IMG/VR virus record: IMGVR_UViG_3300030451_002097
Span: 1-34,704 of that record
Strand: one strand, 5' to 3'
Origin: a virus
DNA length: 34,704 nucleotides
In this document: piece by piece, positions 15,460 to 34,704 of the stretch
Numbering within the stretch: the stretch's first letter is position 1
Layout of the letters: the number at the start of each line of letters is the position of its first letter
Made by a program: the position numbers and the translations under genes
Notes under the pieces: model-generated
Database searches by the model: none
What the model was told of the DNA's origin: nothing
The model's input: the letters and a program-made list of their open reading frames with translations, nothing else

Positions 15460-15660
15460 TTATAAGCCTTCCTTTTTTGCTTTTATTTTACTTTTCTTTT
15501 TGACCGCTGGAAGCGGGCAATCCTTCATAAATGCAATTCTATTTTCTCCAGATTTCATACCACATCTTGCCATATCTCTTGCTGGAACTTCGCCGCTGTT
15601 ATCAGAGAATGACGCGCAAAATGGACATCTTTTTTGCGCAATACTACAAAAATCAAACAT
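15460..15660 (-). CDS. Small Cys-rich (zinc-binding) protein
   Basis: 66 residues. MFDFCSIAQKRCPFC followed by RCGMKSGENR and KDCPLP gives at least five cysteines in a spacing suggestive of a zinc finger (CPFC knuckle plus two single Cys). The tail is Lys-rich (KKKSKIKAKKEG). It overlaps the upstream phosphoesterase gene by 8 bases. Likely nucleic-acid or protein-binding zinc finger; no named family recognised. Confidence 0.6.
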   Translation of the reverse strand: MFDFCSIAQKRCPFCASFSDNSGEVPARDMARCGMKSGENRIAFMKDCPLPAVKKKSKIKAKKEGL

Positions 15661-16888
15661 TAATAATTTTTAAGACCACCTTGCCACTTTTCAGTTTATC
15701 TTTAGATTTAGCATTATAGCTCTCAAGCTCTTCTGTAATATCATATCCTTTTTCGTCATAATATTGCAAGTCAATCTTAATCCCGTCTACTGTTTTATTG
15801 TCGTGAACTATATAAATGTTTTGACTAGCTCTACCTTCTAAGTTTAACGCTTTTTCTGAATAAGCGTTAGCTCCAACCAAAGATGAACTCCTACCGTAAG
15901 TATCTCCTATCCTAGCTGAATGTATGTGTCCACTCAGAACATAATCAATTTTTATATCATGCGAACTGTATCTACCTTTGATTTGCGTAATAGATGTCTC
16001 ATGTTTTGCTTTGATACTTCCGTGTCCGTGTAGTAATAAAACATTCATTCCCGCAATATTTACAACCAACTCACTTGCGTCTTTACTTTCAATAAAATCA
16101 ACATCTGTCTCTTTAAAAATGTATTTAAGAATATTAAATATGGTAAAGTCGTAGTTATCTGAAGCAACAATATCACTCCAACCTACTTCATCTTTAGCCC
16201 TACTTTCATTACCAGTAATACAACCAACGCTAACTTTATAGTCTTTTTGCAAGTCTTCTAACACTTGTTTCAAAATTTCTACTGACAAAAAGGTAGCTTG
16301 CGCTCTATTAGAAGCCATAGACAATAATTCGTCTAATCTTCTATCTGAGTTCATTAGGTCTCCAGTCATTCCTACAAATACTTTTTTAATCCCCATTGCG
16401 TTAAAATAAGTTTTTGCGCGCGTTATGAAGGTTTTCAGCCTTTTACTTGCAACCTTAAAATCATACTTATTATTGGGTAAATCTACTAATTCATTGAAAT
16501 GCGTGTCAGATATTTGAATAATGCCCACTGCTTTGCTCTTTGTGGTAATGGGTGTTTTTTTTGAGATACACTTAATCTTGTTGTCGTCTAAGAGTTTAAT
16601 TAAGTGTTTATTGTATTCGCAAAGGGCATTATCCAATCTAGCATGTTCTCTAAAACTTTTATTGGAAATTCTATTTTTATCTTGAAAGCGTTGCGCTCTT
16701 TTGCTGAGCTGAACATTCTCTATAATTACATCTTTATCTAAATAAAGCGGGTCAGAAAAACTATAATCACAAGAATTGCATTTCCACCTTTGTATTTTAT
16801 CTCCGCGATTATGTCTAAATCCTTTCTTTCTTACTTTACTGCTATTACATCTTGGACAACAAATTACTTGATTTCCAACTATGCTCAT
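15653..16888 (-). CDS. Zinc-ribbon / metallophosphoesterase fusion
   Basis: 411 residues. Residues 10-44 form a zinc ribbon of the InsA/transposase type (C11-P-R-C14 … W-K-C37-N-S-C40). After a linker, residues 121-330 carry all calcineurin-like phosphoesterase motifs: SDTHFNE (127-133), GDLMN (176-180), GNES (226-229), HGHG (287-290) and GHIHSA (320-325). The fourth-position Glu replaces the commoner His of GNH. By analogy with Mre11/SbcD-type enzymes and its place among recombination genes, it could be a DNA nuclease or phosphatase targeted by the ribbon; this is inference. Starts at an ATGA overlap with the upstream nuclease gene. Confidence 0.82.
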   Translation of the reverse strand: MSIVGNQVICCPRCNSSKVRKKGFRHNRGDKIQRWKCNSCDYSFSDPLYLDKDVIIENVQLSKRAQRFQDKNRISNKSFREHARLDNALCEYNKHLIKLLDDNKIKCISKKTPITTKSKAVGIIQISDTHFNELVDLPNNKYDFKVASKRLKTFITRAKTYFNAMGIKKVFVGMTGDLMNSDRRLDELLSMASNRAQATFLSVEILKQVLEDLQKDYKVSVGCITGNESRAKDEVGWSDIVASDNYDFTIFNILKYIFKETDVDFIESKDASELVVNIAGMNVLLLHGHGSIKAKHETSITQIKGRYSSHDIKIDYVLSGHIHSARIGDTYGRSSSLVGANAYSEKALNLEGRASQNIYIVHDNKTVDGIKIDLQYYDEKGYDITEELESYNAKSKDKLKSGKVVLKIINV

Positions 16889-17304
16889 CTATACATCTCT
16901 TTTTCTAATTCTGTTATTCTTTCTTCTAACGCTTTATTAGCTGTTTTTAGATTTCCTATTTCTTCTTTTAGTTCTTGCACTTCTGCCAAGTCTCCTAGCC
17001 AATCGTTTAGCTGTAGCGTTGCATAGAACTTAGCATTCATTTTAAATATATTCACTGGAATTTTTTTCCCACAATCATTATATATTTGTTTCCACCATAT
17101 TGGAATAGATAACTTTTTAGTGTTTTTAATTTCAAAATGATATTGATATGCAACACTATCTGGGTCAATATCTATAATATCGCCTTTAATACTTAATCCG
17201 CCACTCAACGGTGTTCTTCTACAATTAGTTCCTAAATATCTATTAATAGTTTTAGCAACTTCTCTTTCTGCTCTATTTCCCTTGTCTCTTGAGTTTATAG
17301 GCAT
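16885..17304 (-). CDS. Holliday-junction-resolvase-type nuclease (PD-(D/E)xK) with coiled-coil tail
   Basis: 139 residues. NSRDKGNRAEREVAKTINR with Glu14, then GGLSIKGDI (GD at 41-42), then YHFEIKNTKK (E58-x-K60) gives the E…D…ExK layout of Hjc/VRR-type nucleases. From about residue 105 a heptad-rich helix (QELKEEIGNLKTANKALEERI) probably mediates dimerisation. Clear AAGGAG ribosome binding site; overlaps the upstream ORF end by 32 bases. Expected to resolve branched replication or recombination intermediates before packaging, in line with the ERF recombinase nearby. Confidence 0.8.
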   Translation of the reverse strand: MPINSRDKGNRAEREVAKTINRYLGTNCRRTPLSGGLSIKGDIIDIDPDSVAYQYHFEIKNTKKLSIPIWWKQIYNDCGKKIPVNIFKMNAKFYATLQLNDWLGDLAEVQELKEEIGNLKTANKALEERITELEKEMYR

Positions 17305-17743
17305 TAGTTATCTCCTTCTTTTCTTTTTTTGACATTTTTATCCAGTCCGTCATATTTACATAATCGGGCGGTGTTGTTCCTTCTAATCTTTTTTGCTCTA
17401 AGTTTTCTGCACATTTCTTCCAATACTCTTGATTTCTTTGAAAAGCATAATCGTCTTTACAACCATAATATTTTAAAGATGTGCAAGGGCGTGTATAAGG
17501 GTCGTTTAAATCCACTCTTTTACTGAAGCAACTTTCTCTAAGATTAACTATTGAAGAACTATCTGGCATAATATGCTCAGAAGAATGTTCTCTTGTTAAG
17601 TTTCTAAACCTATTTAGACTTCTAGTGTTACTAAAATAAAACCTTCTTAATCCACCTTTCTTTTGCATTATTTCGTAAACCCAAAGTGTTTTCCATTTTG
17701 GTGTCCAATCTTTCTCATATACTCCGTGACTATCGTAACTCAT
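17273..17743 (-). CDS. Hypothetical protein in replication block
   Basis: 156 residues with a good AAGGAG 7 bases before ATG; the ribosome binding site is encoded in the last codons of the upstream initiator gene. Charged and aromatic, four Cys (SCFSKR, RPCTSL, YYGCKD, KKCAEN) spaced too widely for a standard ribbon, with a C-terminal helix rich in Lys (MSKKEKKEITNAYKLKRQGK). I do not recognise the family. Tight coupling to the initiator and resolvase genes suggests a DNA-metabolism role. Confidence 0.7.
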   Translation of the reverse strand: MSYDSHGVYEKDWTPKWKTLWVYEIMQKKGGLRRFYFSNTRSLNRFRNLTREHSSEHIMPDSSSIVNLRESCFSKRVDLNDPYTRPCTSLKYYGCKDDYAFQRNQEYWKKCAENLEQKRLEGTTPPDYVNMTDWIKMSKKEKKEITNAYKLKRQGK

Positions 17744-17744
17744 T

Positions 17745-18494
17745 TTAATTCTCCTTGTATGGTATCATTTTTGTATCGCAACATGTCATATATAAATCTT
17801 TAAACTTTTGCTTCTTTCTTTCTTTTCCACATTGCGGACATTTATAAGTGTAAAAAATTTGTTCATTTTCAGAATTTACATGATTTTCGTTTGCCTTGCG
17901 TAACCAATTATTAAAAAACGCTCCATAATTCTTATAACGCTTACCACTAGATAACAACCAATCTTGCATTTTATCAAACTCTAATTGAACATTAACGCTA
18001 GGGAACTTCTTCTTTAAGTCGCCTAAGTTTTCTTTTACTTTTAATAACTGCTCTTTTTGTGATAAAGATTTCTTTTCATTCTTATCATTCTTTATCATTC
18101 TTATATTGTTTTCGCTCGCGTTTCGTTCGCGTTTCGTAGGCGTTTCACTGCCGTTTCGCTTATCTTGGTAAGTCTCGTAGTTATTAATACTTAGGTGTGT
18201 CCATTTCTTTTCATCTTTTATACAAATCATGTTATCTTTTTCCAACTTAAATAAAAATCTTCTGACCTTACTTGGCGACCAACCTAACTCTTTACCTAAA
18301 TTTTTAAGACTTGTTACAACTTCTCCACGGTGTATTTCTACTATTTCTGGTATAACATCTGAGAACAGTGTTTTTCTGTATTGATGATTGGCGCGCAAAA
18401 GTAGGAATATCCACGCCTTAAAATAATCATCTCGCTGGAAAACCCAGTGTTCTTTTATGTCTCTATGAATTTTAATCCAACCATTACCATTCAT
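17745..18494 (-). CDS. Replication initiator / replisome organiser-like protein (winged helix plus zinc finger)
   Basis: 249 residues. The first 110 match the N-terminal domain of phage replisome organisers and DnaD-like initiators: GWIKIHRDIKEHWVFQ, then AWIFLLLRANH, then a winged helix around TSLKNLGKELGWSPSKVRRFLFKLE. Residues about 111-150 form a hydrophilic linker, and its DNA carries the iterons described separately. The C-terminal part has KCPQCGKERK and MTCCDTK, a four-Cys zinc finger. It would bind the origin and recruit the host helicase. It overlaps the upstream gene by 4 bases (ATGA). No phage helicase or polymerase is visible here. Confidence 0.78.
   Translation of the reverse strand: MNGNGWIKIHRDIKEHWVFQRDDYFKAWIFLLLRANHQYRKTLFSDVIPEIVEIHRGEVVTSLKNLGKELGWSPSKVRRFLFKLEKDNMICIKDEKKWTHLSINNYETYQDKRNGSETPTKRERNASENNIRMIKNDKNEKKSLSQKEQLLKVKENLGDLKKKFPSVNVQLEFDKMQDWLLSSGKRYKNYGAFFNNWLRKANENHVNSENEQIFYTYKCPQCGKERKKQKFKDLYMTCCDTKMIPYKEN
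18060..18163 (-). other. Predicted replication origin: iterons plus AT-rich unwinding element
   Basis: Five consecutive 11-bp units with a GTTTC core every 11 bases: TTTTCGCTCGC (18109), GTTTCGTTCGC (18120), GTTTCGTAGGC (18131), GTTTCACTGCC (18142), GTTTCGCTTAT (18153). Just beyond lie two tandem copies of TTATCATTCT (18082 and 18092) in a very AT-rich stretch. Eleven is not a multiple of three, so the repeat is not a protein repeat. Read along the initiator gene, the order is DNA-binding domain, iterons, AT-rich element, C-terminal domain, the same as the lambda O gene and its internal origin. Confidence 0.7.
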
Positions 18495-23005: not shown

Positions 23006-23107
23006 TTAGCTTTTCTTTCTTCTATAGTATTCTTCCGCTATCATTGGAACGATAACGGGAACGAACACCGCCAAAAAAGCAAATACATTGATTAGTATTT
23101 TTTCCAT
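23006..23107 (-). CDS. 33-residue membrane micro-peptide, last gene of amidoligase cassette
   Basis: MEKILINVFAFLAVFVPVIV then PMIAEEYYRRKKS. One hydrophobic helix followed by a strongly basic C-terminal tail. It starts in a TAATG junction with the amidotransferase stop, led by AAGGAAGGTAAATA. This suggests real translation coupled to the upstream enzyme. It could be a membrane anchor, a toxin-like peptide or a target of the enzymes; none is proven. Confidence 0.6.
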   Translation of the reverse strand: MEKILINVFAFLAVFVPVIVPMIAEEYYRRKKS

Positions 23108-23718
23108 TATTTACCTTCCTTTTCTTCTAGGAAATTTTCCCATGTCATGCCGTTAAATCTAAACACGCCATGCGCGCCATAATTTGACGCGCTACAATGA
23201 TTAAGATTAGAAAACCACACGCCCGCTTTCCAACTTCCCAAGCGTTCATTGATGATGTTATATTTCCCTTTGTGATTAATGAAAGCAAGCTTTGAACTTC
23301 CTATCGCTGAAGCTATCATTTTATCATGTGTTTTGTTATTCATCTTATATGGCAATTGTTGCAAGATATCCATATTAAAAAATCTAGTGTCGCTGATGTC
23401 TTCATCATATGGCATGTTTGGAATTATGCCATTATGAATGAACGCTAGATTTTTATTTACAAAAAACGGGTGAGCATTTTCTAAATTAATTTCGCCTTGT
23501 GTTGCTATGCGAAAATGTATTAGAAAATTTTCATCATACGCTTTGACAAGCTTTAAACAAGTATCAATGAATTCTTTTTCATTCATTGATTTAAAAGCGT
23601 TGAGCTTGCCCTTGTGAGCGAAAACCAAGCCCGCGCCATGCGGGTTGGTTTCCCATGCTTCTTGAAGCGTTTTCTTGCTTATCTTTTTTCCTTTTGGTTT
23701 GACTATTGCTACACACAT
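23107..23718 (-). CDS. Class II glutamine amidotransferase (Ntn hydrolase)
   Basis: 203 residues, a stand-alone amidotransferase domain. Cys2 (MCVAIV) is the expected N-terminal nucleophile after Met removal. The other family motifs are in order: TNPHGAG (24-30), HFRIATQG (68-75), ENAHPF (80-85), FIHNGII (93-99) and the SDT at 109-111. It hydrolyses glutamine to release ammonia for a partner ligase. There is no synthetase domain; the partner is presumably the amidoligase encoded immediately upstream with a TAATG junction. Ala and Arg codons ending or starting in GCG/CGC are commoner than in the structural genes. Confidence 0.92.
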   Translation of the reverse strand: MCVAIVKPKGKKISKKTLQEAWETNPHGAGLVFAHKGKLNAFKSMNEKEFIDTCLKLVKAYDENFLIHFRIATQGEINLENAHPFFVNKNLAFIHNGIIPNMPYDEDISDTRFFNMDILQQLPYKMNNKTHDKMIASAIGSSKLAFINHKGKYNIINERLGSWKAGVWFSNLNHCSASNYGAHGVFRFNGMTWENFLEEKEGK

Positions 23719-25325
23719 TATACACCTTCCTTTAGTTTAAGTTTATTGTATTTTTCATTTACTATTATTTCTATTTCTTCTTCATCTCTTTCTTGAATGC
23801 TATCAAGCAAAGCTAGAACATTTTCGCGCGCTTGCTGAATGCCTTCAGCGCTTGTGTTATCAATAGAAATATTTTCTATTGAAGCGCCTTTTATTCTTCT
23901 TTCCGCGTTTGTATTGTTTCCAATAATCAAAGTTAAAACTTCCTTATTGCTTACTATACAATTATAGATGTTTTTATATTTGTCTGAAGCTTCAAGAAAA
24001 GCTAAAAAGCTTTCAAAAGAAACGCTTTCTAGTTCTAGTTCAGCTTGTGAAACATACGCGAACGCGCCAAGCATTAGTTCAATATGGCGGCAAAAATTAG
24101 AGTATGTCGCGCCCTTTTCATCAGTAGTACTAGCGGGCAAGCGGTATTCTATAGTTTTTGCATTGCTCAAGTTTAGGAATTTATAGCGGTTGTCAATGCT
24201 ATTATAGTTTCCATTTGAATTGTCTTTAGCTAATGCCATGAATTGCGCGTCAGTTTTGCTTGTTATTATTTTGTATTTGCTTTGAATTGTTTCTTGCAAT
24301 TCAGTATTCGGAATATTCCCTAGTTCAAGTTTTGCCCAACGATTTGAACGCCTTCCCGCTAGCTTTTCAATGATATTTGAATTGTTACCAAATAGCTTGA
24401 AAAATTTCGCTAGTGTTTCAGTAGTGAAAGCATTTCTTGAAATATGAATATGAATTCCGTTTCCGCTTCCGCGCAACTTTTGTTGCCTTGCATATTGCGC
24501 CATTAGTTCAAAGCTAGCTTGATTATCTTCATAGTATTTAGCGCTGAACGGGTTAGTTACCATTTCAAAGCCATTTGATACTGAACTATCATCTTTGACT
24601 GAATTAAACAAGTCAAGAAAATGTTTAGTTCCGCCGTTCTTTTTGAAGAATTTAAAGAACTGAATGGCGTTGTCTTGTCTACTTCTTCTATTGGTTGTTG
24701 TAACTTCCCATTCTACGCCAATAAAAGCCGTTTTTTGCGAAGGTCTAGCGTTTTGGTTGCCCGTTGTCGCTTTAACTTGTGTTTTGCCTTCTACACTATC
24801 AAAGAAGAACGCGTTATTAATTCCGCTTTGATAGCTTTGAATTCTTGCAACACTTAAGCAACGGCAAGCCTTGCGGTAATATTCATTACATTCTTTGCAA
24901 TAGTGATATTTTCTTTTCTTCATCATGTGAAAAGTCATAAAGCGTGAATGTTGAGCGTCAAAAAGTTTAATTAAGTCAGCTTTAGCAATTAATACTTTTT
25001 GAGTGTTTGCGGGTATGCTTCGCATTAGAGCATTATCACCGCCCATGTTATCAACATCAAAGCTTGGCAAGCCGTAATCATTGACATCATCAGCGCAAGC
25101 CAAAGAAACACCGCCATTAACGCTGAAAGCTTCAAAGCCTTTGTGAACGCTAGCCCATTCAACTATAGCGGGCAATACATTTTGAAGCTTATCGCCAAAC
25201 AAAAACACAACGCGTGTTGCGCCTTCCATGCTTGAGCGGTTTAGCTTTCTAACATCATTGCTTAACATGTAGCTTTGAAAAGCATTTATTCCCATTGAAT
25301 ATGTTTTATTTTTAGTATTTTTCAT
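23718..25325 (-). CDS. Amidoligase_2-type (glutamine-synthetase-like) ATP-dependent ligase
   Basis: 535 residues. An N-terminal region of unknown fold (1-135) is followed by a small zinc cluster (C143-x2-C146-x7-C154-x-C156). The catalytic part spans about 200-430: FIGVEWEV (201-208), DSSVSNGFEMVTNPF (246-260), GNGIHIHIS (288-296), GRRSNRW (324-330), YKFLNLSNAKTIEYRLPAST (381-400). This order matches GS-like amidoligases, which couple ATP hydrolysis to amide-bond formation between a carboxylate and an amine. The C-terminal 90 residues are acidic and helical. Leader AAAAAGGAAGGTAAATA with a TAATG junction to a 39-residue ORF. The substrate is unknown. Confidence 0.85.
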   Translation of the reverse strand: MKNTKNKTYSMGINAFQSYMLSNDVRKLNRSSMEGATRVVFLFGDKLQNVLPAIVEWASVHKGFEAFSVNGGVSLACADDVNDYGLPSFDVDNMGGDNALMRSIPANTQKVLIAKADLIKLFDAQHSRFMTFHMMKKRKYHYCKECNEYYRKACRCLSVARIQSYQSGINNAFFFDSVEGKTQVKATTGNQNARPSQKTAFIGVEWEVTTTNRRSRQDNAIQFFKFFKKNGGTKHFLDLFNSVKDDSSVSNGFEMVTNPFSAKYYEDNQASFELMAQYARQQKLRGSGNGIHIHISRNAFTTETLAKFFKLFGNNSNIIEKLAGRRSNRWAKLELGNIPNTELQETIQSKYKIITSKTDAQFMALAKDNSNGNYNSIDNRYKFLNLSNAKTIEYRLPASTTDEKGATYSNFCRHIELMLGAFAYVSQAELELESVSFESFLAFLEASDKYKNIYNCIVSNKEVLTLIIGNNTNAERRIKGASIENISIDNTSAEGIQQARENVLALLDSIQERDEEEIEIIVNEKYNKLKLKEGV

Positions 25326-33522: not shown

Positions 33523-34704
33523 ATGGCTAATACTATTAAGATAAAAGCTGGTAGTGGTACACCTACTACCAGTAATATCGTTGATAGAGAACTTGCATTT
33601 GATAGAAGTGCAAACAAATTATATATTAATGACAGCGGTACTATCGTTGATTTAACTGGTAGTGCTTCTTCTGGAGATATTGAGGGTGTAACTGCTGGAG
33701 TTGGTTTATCTGGTGGTGGTAGTTCTGGAACAGTATCATTAGCAGTTGATTTATCAGAATTGACTGATATGACTGCTTCAGTAAATAGCTCTGAAGATGA
33801 ACTAATTATTTTAGATAATGGAGCAGATAGAAGAAAACTTATATCTGAAATACCTTTATCTGCTTTTAATAATGATTCTGGTTTTATTACATCTACGCTA
33901 ACTACTGAACAAGTACAAGATATAGTAGGAGCTATGTTCTCTTCTAATACTGAAACAAGAATATCAGCTACATACCAAGACGGCGACGGAACGATAGATT
34001 TGGTTGTAGACGATATGACTGCTGATACTAATACACAACTTTCTACTGAACAAGTACAAGACATTGTAGGTGGTATGTTTAGTGGCAATACAGAAACAAG
34101 AGTAGCTGCTACTTATGATGATACTAATGGAAAAATTAATGTAGTTGTAGATGATATGACTGCTAATACCACATACTCAGCTGGTACTGGATTAGATTTA
34201 TCTGGCACAACATTTAGTGTTGATGTATCAGATTTTATGTCTAATGGAGCAGATAACAGAGTATTAACTGCTACTGGAACTGACGGGATAAATGCTGAAA
34301 GTAGTTTATTATTTAGTGGCTCTACTCTTCAAATTAATAATTCTGGAGATTGGAGTTATGTACTTAATAATACTAATTCTGGTGGATTAAGATTAGGTAC
34401 TAAAGATTCTGGTGGTACATTAGCATATCAAATAGAATTATCAAATACTGGTAATTATGTAAAATTAAATGAAAATACTACAGTCACTGGCAGTTTAACA
34501 GTAAATGGAACAGTAGGTGGCACTGGAGTAAAAGATGAAGATAATATGTCATCAAATAGTGCAACACATTTAGCCACACAACAAAGTATTAAAGCGTATG
34601 TAGACGCAGAAGTAGCTGGTATTGTTGATTCAGCTCCAGCAGCTTTGAATACATTAGACGAATTAGCAGCAGCTTTAGGAGATGATGCTAACTTCGCAAC
34701 AACA
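33523..34704 (+). CDS. Tail fiber, N-terminal part (runs off the window end)
   Basis: 394 codons from ATG at 33523, TAGGAG eight bases upstream, open to the last base. N-terminal attachment module (MANTIKIKAGSG, ELAFDRSANKLYIN), then two tandem 'TEQVQDIVG-MFS-NTETR' modules (about 33904-34040 and 34047-34164), then the cassette unique to this end, and a segment homologous to 341-517. It should be the beginning of the fiber whose end is at 2..2779; joining 34704 to 518, or 34073 to 1, leaves the frame open. Confidence 0.85.
   Translation, partial: MANTIKIKAGSGTPTTSNIVDRELAFDRSANKLYINDSGTIVDLTGSASSGDIEGVTAGVGLSGGGSSGTVSLAVDLSELTDMTASVNSSEDELIILDNGADRRKLISEIPLSAFNNDSGFITSTLTTEQVQDIVGAMFSSNTETRISATYQDGDGTIDLVVDDMTADTNTQLSTEQVQDIVGGMFSGNTETRVAATYDDTNGKINVVVDDMTANTTYSAGTGLDLSGTTFSVDVSDFMSNGADNRVLTATGTDGINAESSLLFSGSTLQINNSGDWSYVLNNTNSGGLRLGTKDSGGTLAYQIELSNTGNYVKLNENTTVTGSLTVNGTVGGTGVKDEDNMSSNSATHLATQQSIKAYVDAEVAGIVDSAPAALNTLDELAAALGDDANFATT
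34074..34164 (+). repeat. 91-bp exact direct repeat shared with 1-91
   Basis: Partner of the repeat at the window start; the copies diverge at 34165 (A) versus 92 (G). It marks the left edge of the two alternative fiber segments. Confidence 0.95.
34628..34704 (+). repeat. 77-bp exact repeat shared with 441-517
   Basis: The last 77 bases equal 441-517. The preceding 97 bases (34531-34627) are similar but not identical to 344-440, so this is a homologous but diverged segment, not a plain end overlap. Confidence 0.95.

Follow-up and report, generated by a model that had tools for sequence, protein, structure and literature searches.

The locus raises the question of why a minus-strand gene of the window (the whole stretch of DNA analysed, 34,704 nucleotides) should carry, within its coding sequence, an array of regularly spaced repeats next to AT-rich DNA, and whether this is the place where the phage starts to replicate. 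We consider it very probable that the feature is a phage replication origin situated inside its own initiator gene, as with oriL in SPP1 gene 38 and with ORF20 of phage 80-alpha. The features of the locus are the following.

17745-18494, minus strand: initiator or replisome-organiser gene, 249 aa, of the SPP1 G38P type (PHROG 2514, phrog_186, phrog_345 and similarity to gp38)
18165-18482, minus strand: N-terminal winged-helix DNA-binding domain, residues 5-110 (AlphaFold2 pLDDT mostly 85-97)
18255-18278, minus strand: recognition helix codons, residues 73-80, whose sequence tracks the iterons across relatives (nearest-neighbour and per-column covariation tests)
18109-18163, minus strand: five 11-bp iterons with the coding-strand core GAAAC(G)C, predicted initiator-binding sites (direct reading, shuffles, relatives)
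18060-18108, minus strand: 10-bp repeats AGAATGATAA in AT-rich DNA, presumed to act as the unwinding element (AT content and repeats)
17868-18059, minus strand: C-terminal helical domain, residues 146-209, which may serve in oligomerisation or helicase recruitment (confident model helices)
17754-17855, minus strand: cysteine motif CPQC...CC at the C-terminal end (residues 214-247), probably a zinc ribbon (sequence; motif also in the relatives L017 and L019)

Read on the plus strand, the five units of the array are TTTTCGCTCGC at 18109, GTTTCGTTCGC at 18120, GTTTCGTAGGC at 18131, GTTTCACTGCC at 18142 and GTTTCGCTTAT at 18153, in steps of exactly 11 bases; on the coding strand, ∼330 nt into the gene, the units carry GAAAC. 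Two tandem copies of TTATCATTCT occupy 18082-18091 and 18092-18101 of the plus strand and are adjoined by TTTTCATTCT at 18073-18082. Direct reading places the units and the tandem copies where the preliminary description had them. Its further statement that TTATCATTCT copies in AT-rich DNA flank the array is loosely worded: the 10-bp repeats are found on one side only, downstream in the gene direction, where the 60 nt beyond the array are 80% AT compared with 68% across the gene. Two copies of TTATCATTCT are not by themselves an unusual count, and the weight that we give them comes from their position and from the recurrence of such repeats in relatives. The array has the top lag-match score in the 34.7-kb window (26/33 at lag 11, with the runner-up at 23/33, over lags of 8-25), GTTTCN6GTTTC occurs without mismatch in the whole window at this array only, and the window contains no second, oriR-like array, the next best 3-unit score being 10 as against 48.

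Because 11 is not a multiple of the codon length, the array is not a repeat of the protein. When the gene was shuffled synonymously, with the protein and the codon counts preserved, the array was equalled in 0/600 shuffles anywhere in the gene and in 0/2000 at the same place. The three near-identical records keep the array, and a more informative comparison is given by L017, whose protein is 61-63% identical to the window initiator. Here the GAAAC cores are identical to those of the window at 25/25 positions and the other array positions at 17/36 (Fisher p=3e-6), while in the protein 13/22 residues are identical and 9/22 have changed. The preliminary description had taken the repeat to be one of DNA rather than of protein and had expected the iterons to be conserved in DNA despite protein drift, and both expectations are borne out by these data. 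In the relative L019 (58%) the array is degenerate (p=0.03).

The same arrangement extends well beyond the close relatives. Relatives of the initiator are encoded in 157 records of named phages, the N-terminal half being the part aligned among the matches listed. Distant relatives in phages of Enterococcus, Anoxybacillus, Staphylococcus, Bacillus, Shewanella and Vibrio also have 11-bp repeats in the corresponding position, directly behind the winged helix with its NYxxYQ end, and AATAATGATAA-type repeats follow. Five scans of viral contigs gave 370 genes, of which 175 were left after removal at domain identity ≥80% and 174 were long enough for analysis; L005, a pattern match in which only the first 33 residues are alike, was excluded. 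Compared with synonymous shuffles, the linkers of these 174 relatives show periodicity with a mean z of 2.70 at lag 11, 2.29 at lag 22 and 1.03 at lag 33, every other lag being below 0.8 and the winged-helix control flat. Individually, 61.5% of the 174 dereplicated relatives are significant at lag 11 (p≤0.01), whereas the same test on other ORFs of the same loci is passed by 0.5% of 4625 windows (508 ORFs). The number of distinct phage genes in which the gene-internal 11-bp layout recurs is well above one hundred. The periodicity test is failed by 32/174 relatives, some of them visibly with 12-bp units or a displaced array. Apparent 12-bp units in place of 11-bp ones are seen in the linkers of L404, L094, L083 and L060; as 12 is a multiple of the codon, synonymous shuffling does not distinguish such units from a protein repeat. 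In the relatives the AT content is 56% over the last iterons, reaches 80% 20-40 nt beyond the array and then falls to 65-66%, and AATGAWAA is found in this region past the array in 82/138 relatives, compared with a mean of 57 and a maximum of 64 in synonymous shuffles.

The gene product matches PHROG 2514 ('DnaD-like helicase loader') with E=6.6e-32, and also phrog_186 (9e-15) and the O-like phrog_345 (8e-7). It is 39% identical to SPP1 gp38 over residues 1-110 (E=1e-21; E=3.6e-46 by profile comparison) and so has the homologous N-terminal winged-helix domain of the SPP1 G38P type. The AlphaFold2 model of this domain contains helices at 63-70 and 74-86 and strands at 90-94/99-103, and a match to HTH_24 is weak. 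The linker whose codons contain the iterons and AT-rich repeats is modelled with low confidence, pLDDT falling below 50 within residues 117-140. A search of the PDB by sequence returned no match, and by fold the PDB gave no more than winged-helix regulators of a generic kind (E about 0.02); a fold search of viral models gave many 'Replisome organizer' proteins among its matches. For the C-terminal half the family search produced nothing convincing. The CPQC...CC motif at the end of the protein, kept with drift in L017 and L019, may be a helicase-recruiting tail.

The iteron sequences differ strongly among phages, and we asked which residues of the domain vary with them. Iterons were registered to a shared motif and phages compared in pairs, with overall domain identity removed. 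With 45 relatives the signal was marginal, r for column 75 being 0.215 compared with a 95% null of 0.209, whereas the larger set gave a clear outcome. In it the best per-column predictors of iteron similarity are residues 75 and 79 in the recognition helix, 63 and 59 where helix 2 starts, and 98 of the wing. Among sliding windows the recognition helix ranks first, then the wing (92-100), with residues 58-65 also among the best at the 50% and 70% cut-offs. The recognition helix, the wing and the start of helix 2 are the parts of a winged helix that touch DNA. Choosing the nearest relative by residues 73-80 alone predicts the iterons better than random column sets (0/1000 do as well, at identity cut-offs of <50% and <60%). 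Averaged over all helix columns, the covariation is not significantly above that of other columns (p=0.14), so that the signal lies in specific positions and in the nearest-neighbour test. Since all columns share one phylogeny, covariation that is specific to particular residues points to the array being bound directly by the product of the surrounding gene, and this strong support from sequence makes it most likely that the initiator binds the array.

The array, its conservation as DNA, its fixed place in relatives and its covariation with the DNA-reading surface are thus in hand, and by analogy with the homologue gp38, for which others have demonstrated both binding to gene-internal repeats and origin function, a course of initiation can be proposed. 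Copies of the initiator would bind the five 11-bp iterons through their winged-helix domains, and as the spacing is about one helical turn the bound proteins would be aligned on one face of the DNA. The complex would then melt the adjoining downstream AT-rich 10-bp repeats, where the replicative helicase, presumably that of the host, could be loaded. This last step we infer, because no helicase or loader gene was recognised within the window and the C-terminal half of the initiator has no known family; the host helicase may be recruited by this C-terminal half or by a small protein without a recognised family. That an origin of iterons and an AT-rich unwinding region lies within the gene whose product, the initiator, binds it, as had been proposed from the letters, is well supported and matches SPP1 gp38/oriL (PMC6316719).

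The array could instead be an operator, through which the winged-helix protein mainly represses its own transcription, with the true origin elsewhere. The fold is also common to many repressors, and covariation speaks for binding, not for what binding does. We nevertheless hold this to be improbable: the homologue SPP1 gp38, with the same array, is a proven origin binder (PMC6316719), the 80-alpha data on ORF20 complementation and on autonomous replication of ORF20-21 DNA (PMC5499656) point to an origin, and the single array of the window lies well inside the gene with AT-rich repeats attached. The presence of one array only also weighs against a site of the second type like SPP1 oriR, bound by the initiator and serving to stall forks or to form concatemers, while the origin that fires would be absent from the record. 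There are two gp38-binding regions in SPP1, and the record lacks a clean terminal repeat, but the gene-internal site of SPP1 is oriL, from which theta replication proceeds in vitro (PMC6316719), and an oriR-like role here seems unlikely in the extreme.

A true origin of the lambda O family, which we judge very improbable, would account for iterons being followed by AT-rich DNA within the initiator gene, and the window protein does have the weak match to PHROG 345 'O-like'; lambda O in turn matches PHROG 2514, via residues 96-297, mostly its C-terminal half. Against this, lambda O and the window protein have no similarity by BLASTP, and profile comparison gives a probability of 0.15%, results that refute membership of the O family at the sequence level. 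The iterons also differ in being 11 bp, compared with 18 bp at 20-24-bp steps in lambda. Of the preliminary description's term lambda-like, therefore, the order of elements stands, but the protein belongs to the SPP1 G38P type and the units are not 18-bp ones. The chance that codon bias or a hydrophilic, low-complexity linker produced the repeat incidentally is practically negligible. The linker is indeed disordered and rich in N/K/R/E, but a period of 11 does not follow codons, and we reject this source on the synonymous shuffles, the control with other ORFs and the core conserved in L017 while the protein drifts.

The neighbourhood of the initiator gene encodes an ERF-type annealing protein, a PDDEXK/Holliday-type nuclease, an SbcD-like phosphoesterase and an SSB-like protein. 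The phosphoesterase gene (15653-16888, minus strand; phrog_284 'exonuclease') has an extra N-terminal zinc-ribbon-like segment, CPRCN...CNSC. Directly after the initiator lies a gene for 156 aa of no known family (17273-17743, minus strand), which is absent from the same place in L017. In relatives, the genes that follow the initiator frequently encode DnaC-like loaders or DnaB helicases, and neither was recognised directly after the initiator in L017 and L019. Cumulative GC skew, suggested earlier as a mark near 18.1 kb, gives none there; it peaks near 14-15 kb, and the sign of the skew follows gene orientation. Elsewhere, an amidoligase-2 gene adjoins a gene of the aminotransferase/amidotransferase family (23107-25325, minus strand), a pair unusual in a small phage. 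A tail-fibre-like gene is found at both ends of the record (1-517 and 34074-34704) with shared segments (1-96 and 34074-34169, 99%; 344-517 and the last 174 bases, 94%); apart from these repeated tail-fibre pieces, the record has no clean terminal direct repeat that would mark a complete genome. No named phage matched the 14.8-22.4 kb region at the DNA level, and a scan of GTDB genomes with the initiator protein gave no relative.

If our reading is right, the replication origin of an uncultured phage has been located from sequence alone. Beyond this locus the relatives show one rule for a large and diverse family of phage initiators, spanning Gram-positive and Gram-negative hosts, in which a winged-helix domain is followed by 11-bp iterons in the same gene and then by AATGATAA-like AT-rich DNA, the iterons tracking the DNA-reading residues. 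With this rule and tracking, the origins of many phages should be predictable and initiator specificity testable by helix/iteron swaps. We put forward tentatively, as a possibility that we doubt, the stronger proposal that across the family helix and iteron co-evolve as a readable code by which origin specificity is predictable from sequence, examples being WSNTKV with AAACGACA, WSRTKV with AAAAGCCAC and W(D/N)KSKVRR with GAAACGCA, and that the subgroup with the Cys motif and no recognisable loader or helicase hands over the host helicase itself; if true, a single gene of each phage would contain both the protein and its target. The gene-internal origin arrangement is already known from phage SPP1. 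Neither the 11-bp rule nor the helix-iteron covariation was stated in any paper that we found in the open-licence literature; older reviews of phage replication modules lie outside that scope, and priority is not established.

Among known systems, the lambda ori shares with the window iterons followed by AT-rich DNA, in the same order and within the initiator gene; it differs in its annotated 18-bp iterons at 20-24-bp steps, compared with 11 bp at an 11-bp step, and in the loader gene P that adjoins O. Iteron plasmids of the RepA/RepE type are alike in having a winged-helix initiator, direct repeats and an AT-rich element, but their origin is usually outside the gene and their repeats are usually about 17-22 bp. 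Closer are the PVL-type DnaD-like loaders, the PVL and phi879 relatives having 11-bp arrays at the same place, and ORF20 of 80-alpha, a G38P homologue whose gene carries the origin: it shows no complementation in trans, suggesting an ori embedded in ORF20, and ORF20-21 DNA replicates autonomously (PMC5499656). Both 80-alpha and PVL have other iteron sequences, and 80-alpha has the DnaC-like loader ORF21.

The closest counterpart is SPP1, whose gene 38 (our L396, 100% identical to X67865.1) has the units GAAACGACAGA, GAAACGACACG, AAAAAGACACG, AAAAAGACACA and GAAACGGATAA, then AACAATGATAACAATGA. Of the two gp38-binding regions in SPP1 the gene-internal one is oriL, which consists of direct repeats and an AT-rich unwinding element; gp38 binds these repeats within gene 38 with nanomolar affinity, and theta replication has been reconstituted from oriL in vitro (PMC6316719). 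The two systems differ in that the C-terminal half of gp38 has TIGR02220, whereas the window protein has a helical domain and Cys motif, in that the loader gp39 and helicase gp40 lie beside gene 38, with neither recognised in the window, and in the second, oriR-like array that the window lacks. Without a recognised loader or helicase, the membership that we assign is to the SPP1 type of origin and initiator, not to the full gp38-gp39-gp40 module. Both share the homologous winged-helix domain, five 11-bp units directly behind that domain at the same boundary, the adjoining AT-rich element with ATGATAA-type repeats and an origin placed within the initiator gene. Hence the homology, the same array and the published biochemistry of gp38 and oriL together place the feature of the window with the SPP1 kind.
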